From positions 1 to 35,532 of IMG/VR virus record IMGVR_UViG_3300047281_000050: a DNA stretch of 35,532 bases. One strand, 5' to 3'. Positions 33,582-35,532 of this stretch are shown piece by piece; positions within the stretch are counted from its first letter, which is position 1, and the number at the start of each line of letters is the position of its first letter. The DNA comes from a virus. A program made the translations under genes and the position numbers. Under the pieces are notes generated by a model that did not search any database, was not told the DNA's origin, and worked only from the letters and a program-made list of their open reading frames with translations.

Positions 33582-34022
33582 ATGAAATCAAATACAGATG
33601 ATTACCTAAAATATTGGAGGGTAGTAAGACAGTTCATAAAAGTTAAATATGATTTAACTCAAGGAGACTTAGAGATGTTGTTATTTTTATACTCTGAAAA
33701 ATATTTCGGAAGAGATAAATTCGATGAGTTTGACGACCTACTTGGTTGGGATGTATATCGTTTTTTTAGACTCCAACAAGATGGTTGGATTGTAAAGTTT
33801 AGAAATCAAGTTGGTAAAAGAAAGGCTCTATACCAATTAACGATTAAATCTACTAGAATGATTCAATCAATCTATCGGAAACTAAGCGGAGAAGAAATCC
33901 CCGTTAGTAGTTCCAATAGTAAAATGTTCTTTAAGAACGTATCTTATACTGACAAAAGATACAAAGAGATGATTACTGAAATGAATAAAGCTATAAAACA
34001 ACAACAACATCCCTCTCCGTAA
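33582..34022 (+). CDS. Winged-helix-like protein, 146 aa; only rightward gene
   Basis: The N-terminal 90 residues resemble a MarR-type winged helix as found in many Bacteroidota phages: YWRVVRQFIKVKYDLTQGDL, then EMLLFLYSEKYFGRDKF, the recognition-helix-like LGWDVYRFFRLQQDGWIVKF and a wing-like GKRKALYQLTIKSTRM. The C-terminal part is basic and Ser-rich, and the last residues overlap the 3' end of groES on the other strand by 32 bases. It is preceded by an A-rich leader. It may act as a regulator of the divergent promoter or in replication. Convergent overlap with groES and the interlocked promoter make it the pivot of two opposite transcripts. The DNA target is unknown. Confidence 0.6.
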   Translation: MKSNTDDYLKYWRVVRQFIKVKYDLTQGDLEMLLFLYSEKYFGRDKFDEFDDLLGWDVYRFFRLQQDGWIVKFRNQVGKRKALYQLTIKSTRMIQSIYRKLSGEEIPVSSSNSKMFFKNVSYTDKRYKEMITEMNKAIKQQQHPSP

Positions 34023-34254
34023 TGATGGTGTATTGTTTATCATCAATTAACATTGTAAACCCATGCGCTTTATCGTAGTAGATGTCGTCATTTTTCTTGA
34101 TGTTATCAACATCTGTTCCTGATGCGATAACGATACCACGTTTATAGCGCATTTGGTTCACATCTTCTCCTGATAGAATCAATCCTGATTCTGTTTTCAA
34201 CTCTTCATCAATAGTCTTGATGATAATATATTTTCCTATAGGCTTTAATGACAT
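33991..34254 (-). CDS. groES: Co-chaperonin GroES, 87 aa
   Basis: The opening MSLKPIGKYIIIKTIDEELK corresponds to the first strands of GroES. It is followed by a mobile loop TESGLILSGEDVNQMRYKRG (residues 21-40) that carries the hydrophobic tripeptide LIL, the counterpart of the GroEL-binding IVL of E. coli GroES. Then come GIVIASGTDVDNIKKNDDIY and the closing strands QYTIITERDVVVVL. At 87 residues it is about 10 shorter than bacterial GroES because the roof-loop region (near residues 45-55) is reduced. It should cap the phage GroEL or the host one, as gp31 does for T4 capsid folding. It lies 8 bases after the Acb2-like gene in the groEL operon. Confidence 0.8.
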   Translation of the reverse strand: MSLKPIGKYIIIKTIDEELKTESGLILSGEDVNQMRYKRGIVIASGTDVDNIKKNDDIYYDKAHGFTMLIDDKQYTIITERDVVVVL

Positions 34255-34262
34255 AGTTTTTT

Positions 34263-34658
34263 TTATTTTCTAAAGGTTAGCAATTTTACCACATTCATCT
34301 GAGTGTTCAGAATCTCTCCGATAGTATGTTGAAACAAAGACTCTTTCAATTGGTCCCTGTAACCCGGTGCAATACCTTTCTCCAAATCTCCTTCGTAGTA
34401 TGGGTTCTCGTAATCTTGATTTACCAAATCTGCTAACTCTGCACAAAGCTCTTTTGCTTTTTGTACTTTTTCATTTCCTGATGGATTGAATGTTAATCCA
34501 ACAAGTTGTTCCCCGAATGTCAATGTTTCTTTTTTCATTTTTTCTTTTATTTTTACAATTATTTCTCTAACTCTTGCGGCTCTCTCGTAATCCTTTGCTA
34601 TTACATACCTTGTCTTTATTTTTTCTAAAGATTCCAATATCTCTATAAGGCTACTCAT
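34263..34658 (-). CDS. UVR-motif helix plus Acb2/Tad1-type hairpin-like domain, 131 aa
   Basis: Residues 1-40 (KIKTRYVIAKDYERAARVRE and onward) look like the helical UvrB/UvrC-type motif (dyE.AA.lRd). From residue 47, GEQLVGLTFNPSGNEKVQKA, AELADLVNQDYENP and the ending EILNTQMNVVKLLTFRK match, by my recollection, small phage proteins annotated as Acb2/Tad1 hairpin domains. In those the opening is F-x-P-S-G-x-x-x-V and the close is A-x-M-W-A-V-K-A-x-T. Acb2 and Tad1 sequester cyclic nucleotide or cyclic ADP-ribose signals of CBASS and Thoeris immunity. The start at 34658 forms ATGA with the preceding gene, favouring the long form; Met41 could give a shorter product. The assignment is from memory of motifs. 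Confidence 0.45.
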   Translation of the reverse strand: MSSLIEILESLEKIKTRYVIAKDYERAARVREIIVKIKEKMKKETLTFGEQLVGLTFNPSGNEKVQKAKELCAELADLVNQDYENPYYEGDLEKGIAPGYRDQLKESLFQHTIGEILNTQMNVVKLLTFRK

Positions 34659-34888
34659 AGCCCAAACCTTTTTATGTTTTCTATGAACTTTCTCTTGTCT
34701 CCATCTTTAGGATACAACGCCACGTCTATATATCCTGTGCCTCTTCTGTGATTTACAGCCTCAACCCTGAAGTCGATAAACATTGGATTCTCATCCAACA
34801 ATCCTTGGCACTCTTCCAAGTCTGCCATGCCGGATTGGTTTAACCCATATACCTCAATTGTTACAAAGTCAATTCCTCTTATTTTCAT
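34655..34888 (-). CDS. Conserved small phage protein, 77 aa
   Basis: The protein has strands KIRGIDFVTIEVYG and FIDFRVEAVNHRRGTGYIDV, with an acidic helix between them (MADLEECQGLLDENP) and a basic helical end (DKRKFIENIKRFGL), a beta-alpha-beta layout. No motif of a known enzyme is seen. It overlaps the membrane-protein gene by 20 bases and the next gene by ATGA, so it is co-translated with the chaperonin operon. The charged, strand-rich shape would suit binding of a protein or nucleic acid. Role unknown. Confidence 0.5.
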   Translation of the reverse strand: MKIRGIDFVTIEVYGLNQSGMADLEECQGLLDENPMFIDFRVEAVNHRRGTGYIDVALYPKDGDKRKFIENIKRFGL

Positions 34889-35081
34889 CTTTCCAATTTA
34901 GCCAAAATCCAACGCCTACAACTATATTCATTCCCATCGATGCCACTATCTCCATAAAGTCCTGATAGATATTTACCGTTAGGTGTACGTGTCCTACCAT
35001 CCAAAAAGGTATTGATAGGTTGCACGCCACCCATATAACAGTAAATCTTATAAACTCTTTAGTTCTCTTGAGCCTGCTCAT
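34869..35081 (-). CDS. Small membrane protein, 70 aa
   Basis: Two hydrophobic segments are visible (FIRFTVIWVACNLSIPFWMV, residues 11-30, and FMEIVASMGMNIVVGVGFWL, about 42-62), each able to cross a membrane. The connecting loop contains His and Thr, and both ends are basic (SRLKRTKEF; NWKDENKRN). It overlaps groEL by 23 bases and the next gene by 20. Such a short two-segment protein might be a holin-like, superinfection or host-takeover protein; nothing in the sequence decides. No signal peptide cleavage site is obvious. Confidence 0.5.
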   Translation of the reverse strand: MSRLKRTKEFIRFTVIWVACNLSIPFWMVGHVHLTVNIYQDFMEIVASMGMNIVVGVGFWLNWKDENKRN

Positions 35082-35532
35082 AACTACGAGCCATTGTTAT
35101 TGTAGTGTCAGTACTTAAAATAGTCACAGCTACACTCACGGCATTTTGTAATGCACTCCTCGTTACTTTCAATGGGTCAATTACTCCCATCTTAATCAAG
35201 TCTCCAAACTCTCCGGTTTTAAGGTTATACCCTTCTCCCACTACAAATGGTCCACTATACACATCCTCAACTTTCAATCCGGCATTTGCCAAAATTTGAA
35301 TTAAAGGTGCTTGAAGTGCTTGAACTACAATCTCAAGAGCAACCTCACGCTCTTTATTTTCGCTTAGAAATTCAGGAGAAATCTCAATATTCAACGCTTC
35401 TTCAAATAATGCTCTACCTGCACCGGGTAAAATACCTTCTTCAAGTGCAGAACGTACTGCACAAACAGCGTCATCTACCCTATCGTACAGCTCTTTTTGC
35501 TCCAAATCTGTCTGTCCACCTACGAAAATAAC
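35059..35532 (-). CDS. groEL: Phage chaperonin GroEL, C-terminal part (runs off right edge)
   Basis: The frame is open through the right edge (VIFVGGQTDLEQKELYDRVD and onward) and covers the last 157 residues. It shows the GroEL equatorial domain: DRVDDAVCAVRSALEEGILP with the catalytic-aspartate counterpart of E. coli Asp398, GYNLKTGEFGDLIKMGVIDP with the nucleotide-binding Asp495 counterpart, and KVTRSALQNAVSVA. The GGG loop is GAG here. The inter-ring contact region has Ile, Lys, Glu and Asp where E. coli has Arg452, Glu461, Ser463 and Val464. The C-terminus is short (ARSYEQAQEN) and has no GGM tail. It should fold phage proteins, probably the capsid, with the GroES encoded three genes downstream. 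Confidence 0.8.
   Translation of the reverse strand, partial: VIFVGGQTDLEQKELYDRVDDAVCAVRSALEEGILPGAGRALFEEALNIEISPEFLSENKEREVALEIVVQALQAPLIQILANAGLKVEDVYSGPFVVGEGYNLKTGEFGDLIKMGVIDPLKVTRSALQNAVSVAVTILSTDTTITMARSYEQAQEN

Follow-up and report, generated by a model that had tools for sequence, protein, structure and literature searches.

A 131-aa open reading frame (ORF) lies between the groEL and groES genes of a viral contig, and it raises the question of what a protein of two small helical parts does in a chaperonin operon: whether it sequesters nucleotide signals of the host immune system, assists the chaperonin, or has another task in the phage. The stretch of DNA analysed, here called the window, is the IMG/VR record IMGVR_UViG_3300047281_000050 over its 35,532 nucleotides, and L-numbers (L001, L011, L112 and others) denote the related viral loci or contigs compared with it. 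The sequence-only reading of this DNA had described the ORF as a candidate anti-CBASS/anti-Thoeris sponge fused to a UVR-type helix.

The fusion ORF and its operon

The features of the locus are the following:

34263..34658, minus strand: UVR + hairpin fusion ORF of 131 aa, a UVR helical hairpin in frame with a divergent Acb2/Tad1-type hairpin
34539..34658, minus strand: UVR (UvrB/UvrC-type) helical hairpin, residues 1–40, found as a free-standing gene of 42–44 aa in L112, L096 and L097
34263..34538, minus strand: Acb2/Tad1-hairpin-like domain, residues 41–131, with M41 encoded by the ATG at 34538
33991..34254, minus strand: groES (Cpn10), 8 bp 3' of the fusion ORF, PF00166 at 52.5 bits, phrog_3188
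34655..34888, minus strand: 77-aa ORF of the MIRGIDY type, without family, with a 4-base overlap with the start of the fusion ORF
34869..35081, minus strand: hydrophobic ORF of 70 aa, probably encoding a small membrane protein, found repeatedly in the groEL–groES gap
35059..35532, minus strand: 3' part of groEL, running off the window, Cpn60 PF00118 at 89.6 bits, phrog_5725

The ORF starts with ATG, and the residues quoted in the sequence-only reading are found where it had placed them. The operon is tightly packed and runs from the 3' part of groEL through the 70-aa ORF, the 77-aa ORF and the fusion ORF to groES; the overlap of the fusion ORF with the upstream gene is an ATGA, and 8 bases separate its stop codon from groES. 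The hairpin is under purifying selection, with a dN/dS of 0.10 between the window and L013 and of 0.05–0.33 in other pairs, a conservation that supports coding; the 131-aa fusion ORF is real. The 77-aa and 70-aa ORFs match no family; many related phages have them as well in the groEL–groES gap.

The window's likely major capsid protein shares 71% identity with a structural protein of the podovirus-like phage MW202828 and about 46–50% with the corresponding proteins of the Flavobacterium "elemo" phages and of Maribacter phage Panino; because of these matches, the window is assigned to a phage of Bacteroidota-type hosts, here taken as aquatic bacteria.

On the UVR profile (PF02151) the window copy scores 15.3 bits, under the cut-off of 21.5, which is passed by the free-standing copy in L112 (26.5 bits) and by the fused copy in L011 (24.1 bits); the window copy is 67–83% identical to the other copies. 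The UVR part of the AlphaFold model superposes on the C-terminal domain of UvrB (2d7d_B) with an rmsd of 0.5 over 38 residues (Z 7.1) and on residues 413–457 of ClpC with an rmsd of 1.0. By profile and model, residues 1–40 are thus a UVR motif, in agreement with the sequence-only reading. A scan for the module found only four contigs, L011 with a fused copy and three with free-standing ones. The UVR hairpin is a protein-interaction module in UvrB, UvrC and ClpC, with which the window ORF has the helical hairpin in common; it differs from them in carrying just this 40-aa module and none of their further domains. By analogy with these proteins, the UVR hairpin would add a dimerising or docking surface, and this is probably its role in the window protein.

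Homology and predicted fold of the hairpin half

The window protein gave no match over cut-off in direct Pfam, PHROG, NCBIfam and PDB-sequence searches, and on PF24729 (Acb2_Tad1_hairpin) it scores 12.4 bits by itself; because this is under the cut-off of 27, the identity of the hairpin was confirmed via intermediates. The first link in the chain of relatives is L001 (44% identity to the window), from which tblastn leads to proteins of the phages Aaphi23 and EcP1 (E 2e-9 and 8e-6, respectively). In an hhalign comparison, the profile of 50 family members matched the profile of seven phage hairpin proteins with E 8e-31 and 40% identity over 78 columns; six of the seven exceed the PF24729 cut-off, and the seventh, from Aaphi23, is under it with 17.0 bits. 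The cut-off is passed by EcP1 gp26 (37.5 bits), FCL-2 gp60 (51.4), L089 (41.0), L090 (40.7) and T4 Vs.4 (71.4), and also by the DSL-LC05 and elemo hairpin proteins. A PF24729 match at E ≤ 0.01 was found in 9 of the 50 hairpin family members, and 418 encoded relatives were confirmed in viral contigs, far beyond what chance would give. Compared directly, the profiles of the window family and of the Vs.4 group show weak similarity (P 0.004, probability 8%).

Among the closest known proteins is the MWAVK type of phage proteins (EcP1 gp26, FCL-2 gp60, L089, L090 and A0A411AWH0 of Providencia phage PS3), homologous over the whole hairpin at about 40% identity, which have in common with the window a GEKxVGxTFNPS start and a QMxxVKxxT end, whereas they lack the UVR part and carry MWAVK where the window family has MNVVK. 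We know of no functional test of these proteins. Residues ~46–131 are, on these comparisons, very probably homologous to the Acb2/Tad1 hairpin superfamily; the family named by the sequence-only reading is borne out through the relatives, while a profile match of the window protein taken alone, which it had proposed as a check, was not obtained.

In the AlphaFold monomer model (mean pLDDT 90) the UVR hairpin is followed by a short helix and then by a pair of long antiparallel helices; the helices of the hairpin part span residues 48–53, 63–84 and 103–128, with a weaker loop at 81–100, and the short helix plus the two long ones have a pLDDT of 88–90 across models. This layout, which is that of the Acb2 protomer (PMC12043709), is the likeness that the model bears to Acb2 and to T4 Vs.4, an anti-CBASS sponge (PF24729). 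The top two BFVD matches are named "Acb2/Tad1 hairpin domain-containing protein" (Foldseek probability 1.00). Neither the full model nor the hairpin by itself retrieved the solved Acb2/Vs.4 chains 7uq2, 8ixz and 8h2j among the PDB fold matches listed by Foldseek and VIA. A Tad1-type antiparallel beta-sheet before the hairpin was looked for, and the AlphaFold model has no strand, its N-terminus being an all-helical UVR hairpin; the window ORF differs from Tad1 in that the UVR hairpin replaces the N-terminal beta-sheet. The sequence-only reading had named as refuting a lack of profile match together with a fold devoid of the helical hairpin; this did not occur, as the model is a helical hairpin and relatives supply the profile match.

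Generic helical hairpins such as DgkA, EsxA and small terminase were considered as fold identities and discarded as unspecific, with Z < 8 throughout. HK97 small terminase is among these weak matches, and some relatives, L007 and L010 among them, adjoin large terminase or lysis genes, as would be expected of a small helical DNA-packaging protein (terminase small subunit-like) or another late-region protein unrelated to immunity. Such an identity is highly improbable, since fold matches of this strength between helical hairpins are unspecific, the large terminase gene of the window lies 11 kb from the fusion ORF, and phage Aaphi23 has a hairpin gene together with an annotated TerS.

Invariant positions in a 53-sequence alignment of the family are G54, V65, Q120, M121, V124, K125 and T128; nearly invariant are F57, N58, P59, S60, K69 and A119, the window having T at 119. 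Vs.4 holds cGAMP by stacking of Y8 and F82 and by polar contacts of Y8, H11, K23 and R79 (PMC10097602). The mapping of these positions was based on a profile alignment; a MAFFT mapping had wrongly aligned the N-terminus of T4 Vs.4 within the UVR part and was abandoned. The profile alignment with the Vs.4 group, weak (P 0.004) though coherent in its sites, places F57-N-P-S on Y8-K-P-H, K69 on K23, M121 on M75 and K125 on R79, so that Vs.4 Y8 is matched by an aromatic residue, K23 by a lysine, M75 by a methionine and R79 by a basic one. W76 corresponds to N122 and, when the alignment is extended by hand, F82 to T128, with F129 adjacent. The differences comprise FNPSG in the window versus YKPHT in Vs.4, a spacing to the lysine that is shorter by 3 residues, MNVVK versus MWACR, the threonine at F82, and the UVR hairpin added in front. 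As to the ligand-pocket residues, to which the sequence-only reading had tied its proposal, the weak alignment points to a pocket kept in part: the aromatic or basic character is retained at Y8, K23 and R79, and is lost at H11 (S60) and F82 (T128).

Presence and absence of the hairpin gene between groEL and groES

On either side of the site the loci L011 and L096 share 98% identity, across 626 bp upstream and across 258 bp downstream, and L011 has 250 bp more, which correspond to the hairpin gene, beginning at the ATG of that gene and reaching the groES start; at the matching site of L096 the hairpin gene is absent and a free-standing UVR gene ends at groES. In L112 the free-standing UVR gene overlaps groES by ATGA, and its comparison with the window gives a similar pattern at ~83% identity, with ~265 bp extra in the window. 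In MW202828 groEL and groES overlap with no gene between them. Among 80 groES-centred loci of the window's lineage, a sample chosen regardless of the hairpin, only 5 carry the hairpin gene, and a free-standing UVR-like gene of 42–52 aa occupies the groEL–groES gap in 7. Because it is present or absent between near-identical phages and only 5/80 groES loci carry it, the hairpin gene is, by these sequence comparisons, an accessory cassette at the groEL–groES site, as the sequence-only reading had anticipated.

The hairpin tree places the window together with L013 (support 99/93), and L011 together with L022 (99/92), and therefore different hairpin lineages occupy one slot. This pattern suggests repeated gain or swapping of the hairpin gene in the slot; for L096 a loss is also possible. 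The presumed direction of change is gain rather than loss in each case, and the fusion looks like an insertion: the hairpin gene sits between groES and a UVR mini-gene that is free-standing in other phages, with the UVR stop codon gone and one frame formed.

Stand-alone hairpin genes (METRELTFGEKLVG in L014 and L046) have their start codon at the position of M41, and a separate 91-aa product from this codon is possible. Together with the extra DNA of L011, which starts at the M41-equivalent ATG, this coincidence could mean that the fusion arose as a by-product and that the 91-aa hairpin is the functional protein, with the UVR part an insertion leftover, an explanation compatible with a sponge and touching the UVR part only. 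It is rather unlikely, because the ATGA overlap of the upstream ATG with the preceding gene makes translation of the long frame very probable, the UVR codons of the two fused copies (window versus L011) carry fewer amino-acid than silent changes (pN 0.145, pS 0.399), and two different hairpin lineages are both in frame behind UVR.

Gene neighbours and candidate functions

The recurrence of groES next to the hairpin gene was followed in several samples, whose counts are indications and not rates, the samples being biased to window relatives and the contigs fragmentary: a groES-like gene lies in the flank (up to 4 kb) of 27 of 47 hairpin clusters (90% identity) and within 100 bp in 17; the hairpin gene is present in all 26 best-ranked A3-type groES loci and in 46/80 overall; and in the MWAVK branch Cpn10 exceeds the cut-off in 5 of 50 records, in four of which it lies ~250–530 bp downstream of the hairpin gene. 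The hairpin (hp) and chaperonin genes occur in the orders EL-hp-ES, hp-EL-ES, EL-ES-hp, ES-hp and hp-ES. Profile comparison identifies the stand-alone A3 type as GroES-like (E 9e-9) and relates the A4 type to A3 (E 3e-25); Pfam Cpn10 did not detect the A3-type GroES-like protein of L001. These divergent stand-alone GroES-like proteins (L001 1324–1704 and relatives, A3/A4) are frequent on large phage contigs.

Both this recurrent neighbourhood, variable in order, and the strong purifying selection on the hairpin family (dN/dS about 0.05–0.3) would also fit a chaperonin-linked task, in which the MNVVK hairpin branch was recruited as a partner of phage GroES or GroES-like proteins, for example in capsid-protein folding, instead of being a signal sponge. 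The hairpin-centred loci had even suggested an obligate chaperonin partner, a notion rejected because only 5/80 groES-centred loci of the window's lineage carry the hairpin gene. The same scarcity speaks against recruitment in general, as do the phage that is 98% identical across the site and lacks the hairpin gene, the lack of any Cpn10 match in 12/16 hairpin records without nearby groES, the several loci in which the hairpin gene adjoins Tad2 instead, and the fact that the superfamily members of experimentally known function (Acb2, Vs.4 and Tad1) are sponges; the chaperonin partner is therefore judged improbable. Equally doubtful is that signal sponges and phage chaperonins are functionally linked, as the pairing of hairpin and groES-like genes in several orders and with several GroES types might indicate: the two could be co-produced as capsid protein folding triggers immune sensing, or the hairpin could dock on the chaperonin, with the UVR fusion as one docking solution. 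A literature search on a link between groEL–groES and counter-defence returned nothing on point.

Between groEL and groES, related phages carry small hypothetical genes, a RyR gene, HNH and GIY-YIG-like genes identified by eye, and Tad2-like genes. The latter (PF11195, 84 bits) are located in the gap of L115/L017 and L168, with a close homologue in L113, and their nearest solved proteins are the Tad2 structures 8v3e and 9eib (E 7e-31). In L115/L017 the hairpin gene and Tad2 share one gap. In L037 (2581–2787) and L048 (4072–4278) Tad2 is the gene immediately after the hairpin gene, at sites other than the gap; it lies in the flank of 9/80 MWAVK-type hairpin loci, mostly as the next gene. Tad2 is a separate protein family, absent from the window ORF, and its likeness to the case of the window is one of place, as it occupies the cassette spot in relatives and sometimes adjoins the hairpin gene. 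The gene contents suggest that such neighbours are two-sponge pairs, and because of the Tad2 association, the main support beyond homology, a counter-defence role is favoured. Tad2-like genes were also noted with the hairpin gene or in the gap at L273, L270 and L293.

Endonuclease genes of the HNH and GIY-YIG-like kinds, named by eye, are in the gap of L094, L095, L105, L108, L114, L116, L142 and L163, and possibly drive its turnover; a homing endonuclease amplifies anti-defence loci in phage T6 (PMC13096335), a case that may be relevant here by analogy. RyR-domain genes adjoin hairpin or chaperonin genes in L028, L030, L033, L042 and L064, and in L028 (143–874) a single open frame with a putative start spans the RyR domain and the hairpin. 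Next to groES, two distinct lineages (L001, L068, L071, L128, L142, L149 and others) repeatedly carry a conserved protein of ~170 aa (VEAGV.RG.NYTFL motif) that is perhaps phosphoribosyltransferase-like and matches no Pfam family.

The reading that is preferred, with reasonable though not strong confidence, is that of an accessory counter-defence cassette with an immune-signal sponge in the variable groEL–groES spot. On homology and analogy a signal-sponge function of the hairpin is itself fairly probable: the C-terminal ~86 residues form a divergent Acb2/Tad1-type helical hairpin, and we infer that it most likely assembles into an oligomer that would sequester a nucleotide immune signal (CBASS, Thoeris or similar) of a flavobacterial-type host.

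The new elements are the insertion-like fusion, the differing hairpin lineages in the slot, the Tad2-like genes in the gap and the proximity of hairpin and groES genes. For the family of immune-signal sponges, this adds a large MNVVK-type branch that is mostly missed by the Pfam model, and offers a case of a sponge-family gene that one phage has and another, otherwise 98% identical, lacks at the same site, and that is joined there to another module. The groEL–groES gap of phages may thus be a place to look for counter-defence genes, among its Tad2-like, endonuclease, RyR-domain and other small genes.
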